Shown in pieces: positions 1-37,940 of a stretch of 45,533 nucleotides of DNA. The stretch is from positions 1 to 45,533 of the forward strand of contig CAILCG010000006.1 in NCBI GenBank assembly GCA_903832665.1, written 5' to 3'. Source of the DNA: an uncultured Methanomicrobiales archaeon. GTDB lineage: Archaea; Halobacteriota; Methanomicrobia; Methanomicrobiales; Methanospirillaceae. The position numbers were made by a program, and so were the translations under genes. Position 1 is the stretch's first letter. The number at the start of each line of letters is the position of its first letter. The notes beneath the pieces were generated by a model. That model saw nothing but the letters and a program-made list of their open reading frames with translations, was not told where the DNA came from and made no database searches.

Positions 1-116
1 GCTGATTTCTTTATTGTCTCCTTTCGATTTGACTTCACAATCAACAAAAGGAGACGCTGTACCTTAGATCTTTCGGTCGTCAGTACATCTCTTTTGGACT
101 AGGTTTTCTACAGAGC
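1..116. mobile_element. MITE-like element, copy 1 (right end only; continues left of window)
   Basis: The right terminus at 105-116 reads TTTCTACAGAGC, the exact reverse complement of the 12-base left terminus of copy 2 (20872-20883). Including the bases just inside, about 16 bases match (GGTTTTCTACAGAGCA). The flank outside is A-rich (AAAATCATC), like the flanks of the other copies. The inner sequence to position 1 contains no gene and is not clearly alignable with the other copies, so membership rests mainly on the terminus. The other end lies outside the window. The terminus supplies the stop codon of the regulator gene at 108-650. Confidence 0.55.
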
Positions 117-650
117 AAAATCATCAATAATTTTTAATGCTTTTACAATTTTTTCTTCTGGTTTTGTGATTTTATAACTTGGAAGAGCAAAAATATCTTT
201 GCAACCACTCGCGAATGGGCTGTGATCTTCAGGTTCGTTATAGTCTTCGGGAACTACGTAATAGGGTGTAAGTTTTGTTTTTTCAGAACTAAAAATCATA
301 CATGCCATCATTCCAGCAATTGAATGGATTTTCGTTCCCGTTGATACATTAACATAAATTTTATTTCCTGCTTCTGCTTCAATTATTTCTCTGTAGGAAT
401 GAAGTACAGAGAACAAGTCTCTCCCTATTACATCGGAGGGTCGAAGTTCAACTTCACAATGTAATTTTAATTTTTTAATAGCCTGTTGAATAGTGTCAAG
501 GTATATCCGTCCTTTATCACTTTCACTTTTTTGCTCAATTATTAAATACACTTTTTCTGCAGACATTTTTTGTAACGGGAGGATGACCCGATCTTTTTCA
601 AAACCCACTGGGGCGATATGGACCCGTCTTGGAATTGACATTTCTTCCAT
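108..650 (-). CDS. CARF-like HFX_2341/DUF6293-family regulator, C-terminus lost
   Basis: The start (IPRRVHIAPVGFEKDRV, followed by VYLIIEQKSES) and the middle (IYVNVSTGTKIHSIAGMMA, YYVVPEDY) are typical of the HFX_2341/DUF6293 family, which has a CARF-like Rossmann sensor domain followed by a C-terminal winged helix of about 80 residues. Here only 180 residues remain: the sensor is complete, but the frame stops at the point where the winged helix should begin (after KALKIIDDF). The final Ala-Leu-stop is encoded by GCTCTGTAG, the terminal repeat of the adjacent MITE-like element, so the truncation looks like an insertion. Members of the family are thought to bind a nucleotide-type ligand and regulate transcription; without the DNA-binding half this copy may be inactive or act as a bare sensor. 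It is divergent from the methyltransferase-like gene, with about 110 AT-rich bases between. A start at the second Met (641) is also possible. Confidence 0.65.
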   Translation of the reverse strand: MEEMSIPRRVHIAPVGFEKDRVILPLQKMSAEKVYLIIEQKSESDKGRIYLDTIQQAIKKLKLHCEVELRPSDVIGRDLFSVLHSYREIIEAEAGNKIYVNVSTGTKIHSIAGMMACMIFSSEKTKLTPYYVVPEDYNEPEDHSPFASGCKDIFALPSYKITKPEEKIVKALKIIDDFAL

Positions 651-763
651 AATTATCCTAACTCTTTGTAATATTTTAACTATTATAACGTTAATCAGAC
701 ATAAATATGATTTAAAACTAACAAGTTATATAGAAAAAATAATTTGAATGAGGTGTGGTTTCA
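651..763. promoter_or_regulatory. divergent promoter region between regulator and methyltransferase-like gene
   Basis: A 113-base AT-rich spacer separates the two start codons. Candidate TATA elements are GTTATATAG (about 725-733, plus strand) and GTTAAAATA (reading minus, about 675-683). A good Shine-Dalgarno, GAGGTG at 750-755, lies 8 bases before the ATG at 764 and decides that start over the in-frame GTG at 755, which overlaps the Shine-Dalgarno itself. No clear operator palindrome was seen. Confidence 0.45.
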
Positions 764-1669
764 ATGATTCAACACGATCCCTTAAGACATATCATTAATA
801 ATATCGGTCTTGTTGAATCCTGTAATCCTATTGATAAAGCATTGGTAATGCACTGCTCATCAAAAGTAAACGAATTGAAAAATCTATATCGGATTAACTG
901 GCAGGAACAAATTGAGTACAATTCTGCTGATTGTCAGACTGCATATATGATATATTATTTTCCTAATTACATCGAGACGATGTATCATACGTTGATCAAG
1001 GTAGAAACAAATGCAATTAACGGATCATTCAAAGAAAATATGAAAATTTGTATAATGGGAGGAGGTCCGGCCCCGGAACTTTATGGTTTTCTAGCATACT
1101 TGAAAGAAAATTTTCCTGGAATAAAAAAGATTGAAAGTCATTTTTTCGACAAAAATAACTGGGAAAATTGGAGACAGTTTTGTTTTGATAATTTTATAGA
1201 AGAATATTGGGGTTCAGGAAAAATTGTTTATTATAAACATCATATCTGTGACCTCTGTAAGTTACATGAAACTTATGAAATTGAGAGTTTGCCAATAATT
1301 AAAGAAGCAGATTTGCTAATAATTCAAAATTGTGGTCTCGATATCTATACTTCATTACATGACATAGGCAAATATCGTCAGGTCTTTAATAATCTAATTC
1401 AAGCAATGAAACCTGGAAGTATAATTGTTATCATAGATGTTGTAGTCTATAATGTCATCAGTGGAAATTGGTTTGAGACACGAGGGAATTTACACCATAT
1501 CCGAGATATGGCCCAATCTAATTACAATTGCACCGTTTTACGAGACGTCTCCAACGGAAATCCCTATCGTTACACACCTAATATAATTGAACATCCAATT
1601 ATCCGGGATAATTTTCCGTTTAAAGGGGATGTAAAATATCATGCACTAGTAATGAGAAAAACAACTTAG
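764..1669 (+). CDS. predicted class I SAM-dependent methyltransferase-like protein
   Basis: The protein has 301 residues from the ATG preceded by GAGGTG. Residues about 94-107 (KICIMGGGPAPELYG) have the glycine-rich loop of Rossmann methyltransferase motif I. A hydrophobic strand ending in acidic residues follows (KKIESHFFDKNN), and LLIIQNCGLDIY resembles a motif IV strand. Later strands (GSIIVIIDVVV and YHALVMRK near the C-terminus) fit the usual seven-strand fold. The N-terminal 90 residues look helical and may bind the substrate. No substrate-specific motif such as NPPY was found, so the target is unknown. The gene is AT-rich and ends 9 bases before the DUF1848 gene, so the two are probably one transcript. 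It could also be a non-catalytic Rossmann protein; the fold is more certain than the activity. Confidence 0.5.
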   Translation: MIQHDPLRHIINNIGLVESCNPIDKALVMHCSSKVNELKNLYRINWQEQIEYNSADCQTAYMIYYFPNYIETMYHTLIKVETNAINGSFKENMKICIMGGGPAPELYGFLAYLKENFPGIKKIESHFFDKNNWENWRQFCFDNFIEEYWGSGKIVYYKHHICDLCKLHETYEIESLPIIKEADLLIIQNCGLDIYTSLHDIGKYRQVFNNLIQAMKPGSIIVIIDVVVYNVISGNWFETRGNLHHIRDMAQSNYNCTVLRDVSNGNPYRYTPNIIEHPIIRDNFPFKGDVKYHALVMRKTT

Positions 1670-1678
1670 GAAAATACT

Positions 1679-2755
1679 ATGGCATTTAAAGGTTGGGAGA
1701 AAATTTCCCTTGCTGTCGAAATCGATCCTGATAATATTGACGCCAAAAATACAGTCAGTAAATTCAAAATCGTTGAAGCTGTTACTCCTATTGTAATTTC
1801 CGCAAGCAGAGCAACGGATATTCCGGCTTTTTACTCCGATTGGTTTATCGATAAATTTAGAAAAGGATACATGTGTTGGATCAATCCATTCAACCAACAA
1901 AAACAATATATTTCTTTTGGCAAAACAAGGGTTTTTGTTTTTTGGTCAAAAAATCCGAAAAATTTAATCAAATATTTACCGGATCTTAACAATTCAAACC
2001 GAGGATATTATTTTCATTTTACATTGAATGATTATGAAAACGAAAAACTTGAACCTAACTTGCCCTCGCTCGAAAAAAGAATTGAAACATTTAAAGACTT
2101 GTCACAAAAAATTGGTAAAGAAAAAGTCATTTGGCGATTTGATCCCCTGATACTCTCTGATACCTTATCAATCGATGATTTACTTCAAAAAATTGAAAAT
2201 ATTGGCAGTCAATTACACCAAAATACAGATAGTTTGGTTATTAGTTTTATTGATATTCAAGATTATAAGAAGGTACAAATTAACTTTAAAAACGAGGGAA
2301 AGGGAAATTATCGTGAATTTACATTTGATGAGAAAAAGGAATTTGCTGAAAAGATTCAAAAATTAAATAAAAATTGGAACTTGAATATTTTTACTTGTGC
2401 AGAGGAGATTGATCTTCGAAAATATTGTGTAAAAAAAGGACGTTGTGTCGATTATAATTTAATGACAAAATTATTCTCTCATGACAAAGAATTGATGGCG
2501 TTTTTAAATCCATCACTCCAGACGGAATTAACTTCATTCGATTCTGACGATAAAGCAAAAAAAATGAAAGATACAGGTCAAAGAAAAGATTGTGGATGTA
2601 TATTTAGTAAAGATATTGGACAATATAATACCTGTATGCATTTGTGCACCTATTGTTATGCAAATCATTCAAAAAATACCGTTAGAAAAAATTACGAGAC
2701 CTTTATTCAACAAAATTACTCAAATTCATTTTCTGATACAATTATTCCAAAATAA
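1679..2755 (+). CDS. DUF1848 family protein with C-terminal CX3CX2C cluster motif
   Basis: The pattern ISASRATDIPAFYSDWF, NPFN, VFVFWSKNP, FHFTLNDYE, VIWRFDPLIL is characteristic of DUF1848 (PF08902), a barrel-like family of about 300-350 residues and unknown function. Near the C-terminus Cys305 and Cys307 (DCGC) are followed by DIGQYNTC and Cys319, Cys323 and Cys326 in CMHLCTYC. That spacing, CX3CX2C, is the one that binds the radical-SAM [4Fe-4S] cluster, but in classical radical SAM enzymes it sits near the N-terminus. A radical-SAM-type or permuted iron-sulfur enzyme is therefore an inference. The first 35 or so residues precede the conserved start of the family. AGGA lies about 8 bases before the ATG. 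It is the second gene of a pair with the methyltransferase-like gene. Confidence 0.75.
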   Translation: MAFKGWEKISLAVEIDPDNIDAKNTVSKFKIVEAVTPIVISASRATDIPAFYSDWFIDKFRKGYMCWINPFNQQKQYISFGKTRVFVFWSKNPKNLIKYLPDLNNSNRGYYFHFTLNDYENEKLEPNLPSLEKRIETFKDLSQKIGKEKVIWRFDPLILSDTLSIDDLLQKIENIGSQLHQNTDSLVISFIDIQDYKKVQINFKNEGKGNYREFTFDEKKEFAEKIQKLNKNWNLNIFTCAEEIDLRKYCVKKGRCVDYNLMTKLFSHDKELMAFLNPSLQTELTSFDSDDKAKKMKDTGQRKDCGCIFSKDIGQYNTCMHLCTYCYANHSKNTVRKNYETFIQQNYSNSFSDTIIPK

Positions 2756-3197: not shown

Positions 3198-4400
3198 TCA
3201 AGTATTTTTATAGGCTTCAGAAAATGCTTGATCAGCCAACTGGCGATTGGTTTGATTATTTTTTACATCTCCAAGAGATGCATACATTAAACCGATGTTT
3301 TCTTGAGTTCCTGCATATAGTAAAGGATATTTATCAATTGTTTGGATTTTGAGAGCATTTGAAAATGAGGTTCGTGCATTTAAAAAATTTATTTCTTTAT
3401 CTTTAATCATACCTAATTTCATATATGCATATCCGAGATTATTTTGAATAGACGCGTATAGAATAGGAGATTTTTCGTAAGTATATATTTGCAAAGCATT
3501 CTGATATGAGATTATTGCCTTCTGAAGTGATGATTCATTTGATGGATCAAAACGCACGTATTCCATCCCTAAATTATTTTGAATGATTGCATATTCTTGG
3601 GGATAATTTTCAATTGTAAAAATTCTAAGGTCCTCATTATACGCATAAACTGTGTCGCTCAAAGAGTCAGAAACGTATTCACCATAATTCGTCTGAATAA
3701 GGGCATATTCTTTAGGATTATTTTCAATAGTAACATATTTCAAGGCATTTTTATAAGAATCAAAAGACTTTTTAAAATTTAAATTTGTGTTCTCAATTTT
3801 TCCAAGGTGTTTATAAGAAATTGATAAATATGATTCAATTTGTGCGTATTGAGATGGAAAATGATCCCCATCGTAAACCAATAACGCTAAATTAAATGAA
3901 TCAATTGATTTATTGAGATTATTTTTACTATCCCGAATATCAGACAATGATTGATATGCTAAACCGAGATCAAGATGTGTCGTCGCAAATTCATTTGGAT
4001 ATCTTTTTAAATCATAAACTGTTAAAGCTTCATTTAGGGATTCAATAGCGTATTGTAAGTTTTGTTCTTGATTGTCATTTTTGCTCAACGATAAATAATT
4101 TTTTCCGATTTGAGTTTGAGTTCTTGCATATTCGTAAGGGAACTTTTTCTTTGGCACTGTATTTAATAATTGATCATAGGTTTCAATCGCTTTTTCATAT
4201 TCTGTAGAATTTTCATATTTTTGAGCGGTAATCCATTGGTTTAGTATTTGATCTTTAGTTTGTGAGTCCGAAAAATAGGGTTGAGCAATGAATATTATAA
4301 TTATTGCAACAATTACACCACCGATGATTGTTATCACCCATGGGTTTTCAAAAAAAATTTTAATATTTTTTCTAGAAATTTTATTTAGTATTTTCGGCAT
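3198..4400 (-). CDS. membrane-anchored TPR repeat protein
   Basis: The protein has 400 residues. A basic N-terminus is followed by one membrane segment at about residues 21-40 (WVITIIGGVIVAIIIIF), and the rest is made of tetratricopeptide-type repeats of about 45-50 residues. Each repeat carries a variant of YPxEYAxxQxNLGxxY and a helix like AIxSYxNALxIYT; at least seven are visible. The predicted topology is a cytoplasmic stub, one anchor and a large repeat domain, which would act as a protein-binding scaffold. No enzymatic domain is present. Low GC content and flanking direct repeats at 2831-2965 and 4567-4697 suggest a transferred cassette. Its partner is unknown. Confidence 0.8.
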   Translation of the reverse strand: MPKILNKISRKNIKIFFENPWVITIIGGVIVAIIIIFIAQPYFSDSQTKDQILNQWITAQKYENSTEYEKAIETYDQLLNTVPKKKFPYEYARTQTQIGKNYLSLSKNDNQEQNLQYAIESLNEALTVYDLKRYPNEFATTHLDLGLAYQSLSDIRDSKNNLNKSIDSFNLALLVYDGDHFPSQYAQIESYLSISYKHLGKIENTNLNFKKSFDSYKNALKYVTIENNPKEYALIQTNYGEYVSDSLSDTVYAYNEDLRIFTIENYPQEYAIIQNNLGMEYVRFDPSNESSLQKAIISYQNALQIYTYEKSPILYASIQNNLGYAYMKLGMIKDKEINFLNARTSFSNALKIQTIDKYPLLYAGTQENIGLMYASLGDVKNNQTNRQLADQAFSEAYKNT

Positions 4401-20824: not shown

Positions 20825-20871
20825 TGCCGGCGATCCTATCCGCTCTTTTCAATTCTTTTGATGGAAAAACT

Positions 20872-21115
20872 GCTCTGTAGAAAACCCCCAAGTGAGGACA
20901 ACCGCTCTTGGGGGCTCCAGCACTTCATGCTTCTGCCCCCGCCGCTCGGGCATCCCCAATAGCGATAGTCCTTCCGAATGTTATGACCAAAGTAAAGGGG
21001 GTCGAGGGGAGCTTTCCTTGGGATGCCTCTCCCTCTGGGGGAGAGAGGGGGTCACACTCACAACTGCTGCAGAGATTTGCCGGATATATTTTGGAAACGA
21101 GCATTTCTACAGAGC
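20872..21115. mobile_element. MITE-like element, copy 2 (244 bases, perfect 12-base TIRs)
   Basis: GCTCTGTAGAAA at 20872-20883 is mirrored exactly by TTTCTACAGAGC at 21104-21115. GGAAAAA occurs on both outer sides (20863-20869 and 21116-21122), a likely target duplication with two extra bases on the left. The interior has no credible gene. In the reverse direction it aligns with copy 3 (shared blocks ATCGCTAT and GCGGCGGGGGC, then GAGCCCC), and its GGGGGAGAGAG part matches copy 5. It lies just downstream of the antiporter gene. Confidence 0.8.
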
Positions 21116-35429: not shown

Positions 35430-35990
35430 TTAGATCAGGCCGATACTGCGGAGATCTGAGACTATCTTGATCACCGCTTTGGTTGCATCCCCGGGTTCTT
35501 TACCACCGGTAATGATCAGTTTGCCGGATCCAAACAGGAGAACGACAACTTTGGGGACTTCCAACCGGTATACCAGGCCGGGGAACTGCTCAGGCTCGTA
35601 TTCAATCCGGTCAAGATTGAAACCAACGGCAATCTTGTTTAAGTTAATCGGAGTGGCGAGATCCGCGGAGGTGACAATGTTCTGGATCTTATAATCCAGC
35701 TTTTTCGGGATATCAATTCCCAGGTCGCGCAGGAGACCGCCTAAGATATTGAGACCCTTGCTGAGGCTGTCGACACTCTTTGCGCCGGTTAAAACCACTT
35801 TTCCCGAACCAAAAACGAGTGCTGCGATCTTGGGATCCTGCATCCTGAGAACAACTCCGGGAAAGCGTTTCTTGTTATATTCCGCGCCCGGGATTTTGGA
35901 TGCAATATCGGGTAGATCCAGATAATCGGTTACCTTGGCTGAGGCAACAATATTTTCGATCTTAAGGGAATCTTCTGGTCTGACCTTCAT
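35430..35990 (-). CDS. tbp: TATA-box-binding protein
   Basis: The 186-residue archaeal TBP is made of two direct repeats of about 90 residues. Repeat 1 has IENIVASAKVTDYLDL and FPGVVLRMQDPKIAALVFGS; repeat 2 has IQNIVTSADLATPINL and FPGLVYRLEVPKVVVLLFGS, each followed by GKxxxTGxK. It recruits TFB and RNA polymerase to TATA boxes. Unlike many archaeal TBPs it has no long acidic tail. It follows the acetyl-CoA synthetase gene by 54 bases but has its own TATA box in that spacer. Confidence 0.97.
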   Translation of the reverse strand: MKVRPEDSLKIENIVASAKVTDYLDLPDIASKIPGAEYNKKRFPGVVLRMQDPKIAALVFGSGKVVLTGAKSVDSLSKGLNILGGLLRDLGIDIPKKLDYKIQNIVTSADLATPINLNKIAVGFNLDRIEYEPEQFPGLVYRLEVPKVVVLLFGSGKLIITGGKEPGDATKAVIKIVSDLRSIGLI

Positions 35991-36012
35991 ATTTATAAAT
36001 GATATAAAACAG

Positions 36013-36020
36013 TATTTAAA
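36013..36020 (-). promoter_or_regulatory. tbp TATA box (leaderless transcript predicted)
   Basis: TTTAAATA on the minus strand is centred about 27 bases before the tbp ATG, so transcription should begin at or next to the start codon. Confidence 0.6.
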
Positions 36021-36044
36021 AAGTTGGTTATGATCGTGCCCAGA

Positions 36045-37940
36045 TCATTCATCCAGGGTTGATATATCACCCGGGTCCATCCCCATCTCTTTTGCCTTGA
36101 GGACACGACGCACGATCTTTCCGCTCCGGGTCTTGGGAAGGGAATCGGTAAATTCTATCTCTGACGGCATAGCGATAGGCCCTAAGGTAATCCGCACATG
36201 GTAGATGAGTTCGTTCCTGAGTTTGTCGCTGGGTAGATGACCCACCCTTAACGTTACGAAGGCTTTTATGGTGTTGCCTTTTAACGGATCCGGTTTGCCA
36301 ATGACGGCTGCTTCTGCTACGGCCTTATGGGAAACCAGCGCGCTTTCAACTTCAGCGGTACCGATATTGTGACCTGCCACAACAATCAGGTCATCGGATC
36401 TCCCGATCACCATGATATTGCCGTCCTCCCCTTTGATTGCGAGATCCCCTACTGTGTAGCAACCGGGAATCGTCTCCCAGTATTTGCGGTAGCGCTCGTC
36501 ATTGTTATAGACCGTGCGCATCATTGCAGGCCAGGGTTCTTTGATCACCAGGAACCCATTTGTCCCCGGGGGTACGGGCTTTCCTTCGCTGTCTACCACG
36601 TCCGCGATCACTCCCGGAATGGCTTTTCCCGCAAATCCCGGGCGCATCGGTTCTCCGAGAACGGTCGTCACCATATGCATACCCGTCTCGGTCTGCCACC
36701 AGGTATCCACAATGGGGCACTTATCTTTCCCGATTACATGGTAAAACCACTCGAATGCCTCCGGGTTCAGCGGTTCTCCGACCGATCCCAGGATTCGCAA
36801 TGAACTGAGATTGTACTTGTCAGGCCATTCGCGACCGAGTTTCATGAACATGCGGATGGCCGTCGGAGCCGTGTACAGGATCGAGACGCCGTACTCCTCC
36901 ACCATCTTCCACCAGATGCCCGGATCCGGGTAATCGGGGGTGTTCTCGCAGATGAAGATCGTGCCACCTACGCAAAGCGGGCCATAGACAACGTACGAAT
37001 GACCCGTGATCCAGCCGGGATCGGCAGTACACCAGTACACATCGTTCTCCTTGAGATCGAAAATGTACTTGGTAGTATAGTATGCCCCGACCATGTACCC
37101 CCCGCAGGTATGGACAATGCCCTTGGGTGCACCGGTGGTCCCGCTCGTGTACAGGATAAACATCGGATCTTCCGAGTCCATCACTTCTGCCGGGCAATCA
37201 GATCCCACATCAGCGAGCAACTCGTAGAAGTCAATCTCCATCTCGCTGTGAATCTCTACCGGGAGGTGAAGATTACGCCGCAGGATAACAAGATGTTCAA
37301 CCATCGGGGCATTGATGATCGCCTCTTCTATCACGTGCTTTAAAGGAATCGACTTGCCCCTGCGGATTGCGATATCGGCCGTGATCACGATCTTTGCGCC
37401 GGCACCTACGATCCGCTGGTTCAGCGCCGCTGCTCCGTAACCCCCGAAGACGACCGAATGGATCGCCCCAATCCGGGCACAGGCGAGCATCGCAATGATC
37501 TGCTCCGGGATCACCGGCATATAGATACAGACACGGTCCCCTTTTGTGACCCCGAGCTTTTTCAACCCGTTTGCAAAACGCTGGACTTCCCGGAAGAGCT
37601 GACGGTAGGTATAGACCCGGTCTTCCGTTTCGGTCTCGCCCCGCCAGATCAGTGCCACCTTATTCCGGTTTTTTCCCAGCACGTGCCGGTCCAGGCAGTT
37701 ATAGGTGATGTTTGTCTTGCCATTGACGAACCATTGTGCGTAGGGGTAATTCCATTCGCGTACTTTGTCCCATGGAGAGAACCAGTGAAGTTTCTGCGCG
37801 ATCTTTGCCCAGAACGCCTCCGGATCTTTTAGAAATTCATTATACGCCCAGTTGTAGTCACCTATCCAGCTGCTCTGGCGATAGGAGGGATCAGGAGTGT
37901 AATACTTCTGTTCGGTCTTCACATCCGCGCTCTCAACCAT
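36045..37940 (-). CDS. acs: acetyl-CoA synthetase, AMP-forming
   Basis: The 631-residue enzyme makes acetyl-CoA from acetate, ATP and CoA through acetyl-AMP. Motifs: ILYTSGTTGAPKGIVHT (phosphate loop), VDTWWQTETGMHM (acetate pocket with the conserved Trp), YTVGDLAIKGEDGNIMVIGRSDD, and PKTRSGKIVRRVL with the catalytic C-terminal lysine. The N-terminal 40 residues (YWAYNEF-like ACAS_N region, here DYNWAYNEFLKDPEAFW) are complete. AGAGGTA precedes the ATG. It is divergent from the ADP-forming enzyme at 38180, so both routes of acetate activation lie side by side. Confidence 0.94.
   Translation of the reverse strand: MVESADVKTEQKYYTPDPSYRQSSWIGDYNWAYNEFLKDPEAFWAKIAQKLHWFSPWDKVREWNYPYAQWFVNGKTNITYNCLDRHVLGKNRNKVALIWRGETETEDRVYTYRQLFREVQRFANGLKKLGVTKGDRVCIYMPVIPEQIIAMLACARIGAIHSVVFGGYGAAALNQRIVGAGAKIVITADIAIRRGKSIPLKHVIEEAIINAPMVEHLVILRRNLHLPVEIHSEMEIDFYELLADVGSDCPAEVMDSEDPMFILYTSGTTGAPKGIVHTCGGYMVGAYYTTKYIFDLKENDVYWCTADPGWITGHSYVVYGPLCVGGTIFICENTPDYPDPGIWWKMVEEYGVSILYTAPTAIRMFMKLGREWPDKYNLSSLRILGSVGEPLNPEAFEWFYHVIGKDKCPIVDTWWQTETGMHMVTTVLGEPMRPGFAGKAIPGVIADVVDSEGKPVPPGTNGFLVIKEPWPAMMRTVYNNDERYRKYWETIPGCYTVGDLAIKGEDGNIMVIGRSDDLIVVAGHNIGTAEVESALVSHKAVAEAAVIGKPDPLKGNTIKAFVTLRVGHLPSDKLRNELIYHVRITLGPIAMPSEIEFTDSLPKTRSGKIVRRVLKAKEMGMDPGDISTLDE

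Follow-up and report, generated by a model that had tools for sequence, protein, structure and literature searches.

Organization of the MT–DUF1848 locus

We analyzed a 45,533-nucleotide stretch of DNA (hereafter the window), which is the entire contig C6 (CAILCG010000006.1) of an uncultured Methanomicrobiales archaeon (GCA_903832665.1; here genome G000 of the methanogen class, 2.88 Mb in 28 contigs) and whose position 1 is the extreme contig end. An initial annotation had pointed to three open reading frames (ORFs) at 108–2755, and these are present as described: a CARF-type ORF on the reverse strand, facing a methyltransferase-like ORF (hereafter MT) and a DUF1848 ORF on the forward strand. 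The latter two do form a tight two-gene unit, as DUF1848 begins 9 bp past the MT stop codon, and they would be transcribed as one operon. For MT, the ATG at 764, preceded by GAGGTG, is a likelier start than the alternative GTG at 755. All feature coordinates are compiled in Table 1.

Predicted folds of the two proteins

The window MT matched no Pfam family and had no significant relative by sequence in the PDB. As a single-protein query it found no match among genome contigs, its profile found none in viral contigs, and tblastn found none in phages. Comparison of profiles using hhalign nevertheless showed the window-type MT to be homologous to the variant A MTs (see below), partners of the classical methyltransferase type (probability 95%, E 4e-8); the alignment also covers the tyrosine/proline segment that precedes motif I. 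At the motif I position itself, GGGPAPE stands in the window MT and a classical FGCGTGGE in the Bacteroidota partners. An AlphaFold2 model built from a shallow alignment (predicted local distance difference test, pLDDT, 60; predicted template modeling score, pTM, 0.64) has its strands and helices in the order typical of class I methyltransferases, and 976 of the 1000 chains compared with it reached Z ≥ 8, as expected for a Rossmann-type seven-strand fold. The best structural match, METTL17/Rsm22, covers most of the model (Z 15.6, 4.1 Å over 247 residues), and nearly all of the listed matches are methyltransferase-fold chains. Together, alignment and model fit a class I S-adenosylmethionine (SAM)-methyltransferase fold.

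The DUF1848 protein was modeled with higher scores (pLDDT 89, pTM 0.89) and likewise has no PDB relative by sequence. Foldseek alone returned weak TIM-barrel matches; upon realignment, radical-SAM enzymes filled the first 23 places (Z 7.8–9.4), with Elp3 (9.4), SuiB (8.7), spore photoproduct lyase (8.7) and viperin (8.6) sharing a partial TIM barrel with the model. The iron–sulfur motif noticed initially is indeed present near the C-terminus, and its CX3CX2C spacing is that of the radical-SAM superfamily. We therefore predict from the model that DUF1848 is a radical-SAM enzyme. The cysteines of radical-SAM enzymes are normally found close to the N-terminus; because those of DUF1848 are close to the C-terminus, its barrel is probably permuted. 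Four more cysteines (C240, C256, C305 and C307) are invariant and could form a second metal site. At the level of predicted folds, the methyltransferase and radical-enzyme readings of the initial annotation thus both hold.

Radical-SAM enzymes and methyltransferases often pair in the biosynthesis of ribosomally synthesized and post-translationally modified peptides (RiPPs) or of small molecules. SuiB and SkfB are among the fold matches of DUF1848, and MT matches small-molecule methyltransferases. However, no precursor-like small ORF was seen around the pair (by eye only), and the recurrent partners described below are helicases and defense genes rather than transporters or peptidases, so that we regard a peptide or small-molecule pathway as very improbable.

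The MT–DUF1848 pair recurs in archaea and bacteria

The DUF1848 family is common; this analysis brought up no function for it, and it is named in no paper of the literature searched. Among 232 genomes of the class, 103 carry DUF1848 and six carry MT (the window, L021, L022, L023 of genome G159, L024 and L025). All seven MT genes adjoin DUF1848, two of them flanking a single DUF1848 gene in L022.

Searching genome contigs for DUF1848 gave at least 592 stretches, of which the best 80 were taken and their neighborhoods searched with three MT profiles. An MT-domain gene was found nearby in 35 of these 80 loci of other genomes, in most cases accompanied by a UvrD or DpdF/RecQ-like helicase that is sometimes part of the same protein. 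In 13 loci (variant A), MT is a separate gene, mostly in the order MT, UvrD helicase, protein X, DUF1848; L105, where helicase and X are present and the locus is cut off, is a possible fourteenth. In the remaining 22 (variant B), the MT domain is part of a protein encoded near DUF1848, mostly directly downstream, and profile matches of 3e-8, 3e-6 and 7e-5 tie this variant to variant A. The combination of MT and DUF1848 spans archaea, Bacteroidota, Deferribacterota, Cloacimonadota and one cyanobacterial plasmid. Hence, of the arrangement whose recurrence the initial annotation had proposed to survey, the pair recurs across archaea and bacteria, and the trio with CARF does not.

In a tree of 116 DUF1848 proteins built by a quick method, variants A and B show clustering (0 of 500 shuffles), and the archaeal genes linked to MT are spread over the tree (7 changes for 7 genes). 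The window DUF1848 lies outside the starred clade that holds most Methanoregula genes and belongs to no starred set. This scatter and the position of the window gene are consistent with the pair having been acquired repeatedly by transfer.

The solitary DUF1848 genes of Methanoregula immediately follow ksgA, and other solitary copies are located near thiI. These placements favor a reading in which the pair would modify host tRNA or rRNA, for instance by installing a hypermodified base resistant to phage nucleases or by restoring cleaved tRNA. The fold matches to Elp3, which acts on tRNA, and to METTL17/Rsm22 of the mitoribosome point the same way. Fold matches do not fix the substrate, however, and the helicase partners match the DNA-defense helicases DpdF, GajB and C3a187; an RNA-modifying pair accordingly appears to us improbable.

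The genome has a second DUF1848 gene (G000:C18:108666-109705) near ksgA, at the site where relatives carry a solitary DUF1848. We rejected it as a paralogue of the window pair: it is split over two frames and is not accompanied by MT, and the tree separates the window gene from the main Methanoregula clade. DUF1848 is also carried by four viral contigs of IMG/VR (L005, L006, L007 and L008), in whose stored stretches the MT profile found no MT.

Helicases, repair-type enzymes and defense systems accompany the pair

UvrD-like helicases accompany both variant A and the archaeal forms L023–L025, which bear tetratricopeptide repeats (TPRs) and follow the order TPR-UvrD, TPR-MT, DUF1848. Eight variant B proteins of 1,377–1,746 aa combine the MT domain with a helicase, whose superfamily 2 (SF2) part is DpdF-like in the two tested (L057 and L038). 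In L057, a weak restriction endonuclease (REase)-like match lies between the MT and helicase domains. In L070, the MT domain is fused to a NERD-UvrD helicase.

Giant proteins that carry the MT domain at the N-terminus and also contain a helicase part are encoded behind DUF1848 (L057 9996–15236, L038 2746–7305, L055 9971–14587, L042 5957–10564). In several of these loci, a gene for a coiled-coil protein comes next; the one tested gave weak ZorA/JetC-like matches. Protein X of the variant A operon (580–820 aa; L060 7217–8962, L061 3962–6364, L033 4582–6621) had no significant Pfam or PADLOC match in the two copies scanned. Genes resembling ADP-ribosylglycohydrolase were seen by inspection near DUF1848 in L066 (14480–15292), L109 (14639–15448) and L080 (13046–13870).

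AlkB occurs in six loci. Four of these are on cyanobacterial plasmids, where it neighbors MT, and in the other two, L038 and L055, it neighbors DUF1848; the Planktothrix plasmid, one of the four, also has a DUF1848 gene convergent with MT. The operon of L024 ends in an MrfA/Hrq1-like helicase with an MZB domain. Both observations suit a nucleic-acid repair module without a defense role, in which DUF1848 would reverse a base lesion by radical chemistry, AlkB would dealkylate, helicases would expose the damage and MT would support the process. Spore photoproduct lyase reverses a base lesion by radical chemistry and is among the best fold matches of DUF1848, but it matches no better than other radical-SAM enzymes. 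Moreover, a sporadic distribution (6 of 232 genomes) and placement with BREX, Dnd and Hma genes are unusual for a repair pathway, and we consider repair an unlikely explanation of the pair.

That placement was seen at several loci. In L033, the sole locus of its kind, MT, DUF1848, UvrD and X follow one another between a PglX-like fragment (recognized by eye) and PglZ with BrxL of a BREX system; among the window ORFs, inspection without a dedicated scan brought no such BREX genes to notice. DndC/DndD-like genes precede MT in L023, and HmaB precedes MT and AlkB in L018. On the plasmids pSYSA and pSYLA, MT is found some 4–6 kb from the cas1–cas2 end of a type III-B CRISPR locus. The possible defense link raised by the initial annotation is therefore supported by neighbors, namely BREX, Dnd, Hma, type III CRISPR and helicases.

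The CARF gene is split by an insertion element

The ORF facing the pair matches HFX_2341_N (PF19810, 1.7e-32) and PADLOC CARF3 (5.9e-47), and its N-terminal domain is the CARF domain of CARF–winged helix-turn-helix (wHTH) factors of the Csa3/HFX_2341 type. The C-terminal wHTH is missing from the frame: the ORF ends at 180 aa, where this domain should begin. Eleven close relatives in the class are 249–269 aa long, carry a C-terminal wHTH and share 45–54% identity with it. Using a full-length relative as the query, we located the missing half at the end of another contig of the same genome (G000:C16:201780-202001). The 17-bp repeat TGCTCTGTAGAAAACCT is found on both the C6 and C16 ends, where its two copies face opposite ways with respect to the gene; the 8-bp GATGATTT lies outside each copy. 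Across the genome, the 17-mer has 43 copies at ≤2 mismatches (20 exact), many of them 100–141 bp from a contig end, and its reversed control has no match. One further copy with one mismatch lies within the window at 20871–20887. Taken together, these sequences indicate that a multicopy insertion element splits the CARF gene and caused the break in the assembly at this place; no transposase sequence was read. In view of the wHTH half on C16 and the insertion repeats, we rejected a natural one-domain protein. What had been annotated as a nucleotide-sensor-type regulator is consequently correct as to its CARF domain, but the gene is interrupted.

Table 1. Features of the first 2,755 positions of the window
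Feature	Position	Strand	Basis
End of multicopy insertion element	1..117	-	Many repeat copies at contig ends; matching inverted end on C16
17-bp terminal inverted repeat TGCTCTGTAGAAAACCT	101..117	-	Repeat search of genome
CARF ORF, 5' half of CARF-wHTH regulator gene	108..650 (genuine CARF codons ~118–650)	-	PF19810; alignment with 11 full-length relatives
8-bp target-site duplication GATGATTT	118..125	-	Identical 8 bp beside C16 repeat
A+T-rich intergenic spacer, common to the divergent CARF gene and MT–DUF1848 pair	651..763	.	Sequence
MT, predicted class I SAM-methyltransferase-fold protein, 301 aa, motif GGGPAPE	764..1669	+	Family alignment; profile match; AlphaFold2 model and fold search
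DUF1848 protein, 358 aa, predicted radical-SAM enzyme	1679..2755	+	PF08902 (6.9e-92); model
CX3CX2C codons (C319, C323, C326), predicted [4Fe-4S] site, C-terminal	2633..2656	+	Invariant in 21 aligned relatives

Cyclic oligonucleotide binding is known for the Csa3 protein of S. solfataricus (PMC8844856). Intact relatives of the window CARF protein adjoin type I-E (L161, L162) and type I-G (L169) cas genes, often divergently, a gene for a ThsB-like TIR protein (L165) and type I restriction–modification (RM) genes (L165, L168, L170). Neither MT nor DUF1848 was found beside close CARF relatives, and no CARF relative was found at any other MT/DUF1848 locus examined; CARF as a fixed third member was rejected on these grounds. 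Because these relatives flank varied defense operons and none of them adjoins MT or DUF1848, the CARF-wHTH gene seems to be a regulator that can be exchanged among defense operons, and its presence here hints at a defense role of the pair. As the trio does not recur and the gene is cut, small-molecule control of the pair would be at best a past state of the locus.

In three methanogen genomes, a two-gene unit encoding an unknown protein of ~280–330 aa and a ThsB-like TIR protein is divergent from a CARF-wHTH gene (L164 3455–4947, L165 7922–9403, L167 3091–4416); the gene order of L164 and L167 resembles that of the L165 TIR locus by inspection, and the ThsB-like identity was tested in L165. 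This unit looks like a separate candidate defense system.

The A+T-rich end of the contig

In agreement with the A+T richness reported initially, G+C content is 32–34% from position 1 to ~4,450, compared with roughly 45–61% in most of the window, which beyond this point looks on inspection like ordinary methanogen chromosome. Four ORFs lie in these first 4.4 kb, the fourth being a TPR ORF (3198–4400, reverse strand). We rejected it as a member of the module: it is separate and on the opposite strand, and the MTs of L023–L025 have TPRs of their own. The view of this stretch as a mobile-looking island finds support in the insertion element and base composition only, since no integrase or tRNA was seen there. 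For an empty-site comparison, L200, L201 and L202, which share the flanking AddA-like gene, align to the window only from ~4,950. As C16 and C6 are joined only via the insertion element, the comparison yielded neither a clean empty site nor the left border of the island.

Elsewhere in the window, acetyl-CoA-synthetase-like and TATA-binding-protein-like genes (named by eye) are adjacent at 35430–37940, 33 kb from the module; the same neighbors, also named by eye, directly adjoin the MT–DUF1848 module of L022 (11989–14356).

A model for the MT–DUF1848 module

Overall, we propose that MT and DUF1848 are one enzyme pair, representing the minimal form of a widespread nucleic-acid-modifying module that acts in conflict with viruses and plasmids, a reading that we judge evenly poised between right and wrong. 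The pair most likely modifies nucleic acid, since helicase fusions and defense loci point to this substrate and both folds use SAM. The larger forms also contain a helicase of the UvrD-like SF1 or DpdF/RecQ-like SF2 type, either as its own protein or fused to MT, TPR repeats, a PD-(D/E)XK-like domain, protein X or AlkB, and the module would move horizontally. The helicase, where present, would open or track the nucleic acid, MT would transfer a group from SAM and DUF1848 would carry out a radical-SAM step on the same molecule, so that DNA or RNA may be marked, altered or repaired during the conflict. The module may function by itself or supplement a BREX, Dnd, Hma or type III CRISPR system. 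In this genome, the divergent CARF-wHTH regulator would have controlled the pair before the insertion element split its gene.

Several observations weigh against this proposal. The MT model is of moderate confidence only (pLDDT 60). The window operon has no helicase, and inspection of the ORFs revealed no known defense system nearby. Many Bacteroidota copies are flanked by ordinary chromosomal genes. Finally, most DUF1848 genes of the class are not accompanied by MT and several occupy fixed places beside ksgA or thiI, on account of which the family also has a non-defense role.

More tentatively, and with some doubt, one may envisage a stand-alone immune module in which MT and a radical-SAM enzyme with its cysteine motif at the C-terminus would act together to install or reverse a nucleic-acid modification. 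A helicase would normally drive this module, which could plug into loci of BREX, Dnd, Hma or type III CRISPR systems, with CARF (cyclic nucleotide) control possible in methanogens. That the module is undescribed is our best reading of the literature searched. That DUF1848 is paired in several phyla with an MT domain and with helicases, in defense neighborhoods, defines a testable enzyme system. If correct, a radical-SAM step on nucleic acid in defense would, to our knowledge, be new chemistry for the field.

Comparison with known systems

DUF1848 resembles the radical-SAM superfamily (Elp3, spore photoproduct lyase, viperin) in its partial TIM barrel and CX3CX2C motif and departs from it in the C-terminal location of this motif and the additional invariant cysteines. 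The window CARF domain, close in sequence to intact HFX_2341/Csa3-type regulators next to cas, TIR and RM genes, differs from these regulators in that the wHTH half has been split off.

Several components match PADLOC families related to reverse transcriptases (RTs). DUF1848 matches RTasDUF1848 (5e-40), a partner helicase matches RTasHel/RTasNERD-Hel, and the N-terminal part of RT_UG35 resembles the Bacteroidota MTs. In contrast to these DRT-related RT-associated/UG35 families, MT here stands as a gene of its own or is joined to helicases rather than to an RT. No convincing YxDD protein was found in the 80 DUF1848 loci by motif scan and inspection, with no profile search made, and no RT was noticed among the window ORFs by inspection.

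The window MT also weakly matches PADLOC C3a159 (methyl transferase; 2e-5), and the MT-NERD-UvrD protein of L070 matches C3a187 (NERD+UvrD; 1e-43). We take 'C3a' from the name to denote type III CRISPR accessories. Unlike such accessories, the window MT has no cas gene noticed in its window, and only the Synechocystis plasmids have MT near type III-B. Lastly, the SF2 helicase part of the giant L057 protein is akin to DpdF (4e-71), the helicase of Dpd-type 7-deazaguanine DNA modification. No other dpd gene was noticed and, unlike Dpd systems, the L057 protein combines this helicase with an MT domain and the REase-like match and adjoins DUF1848.

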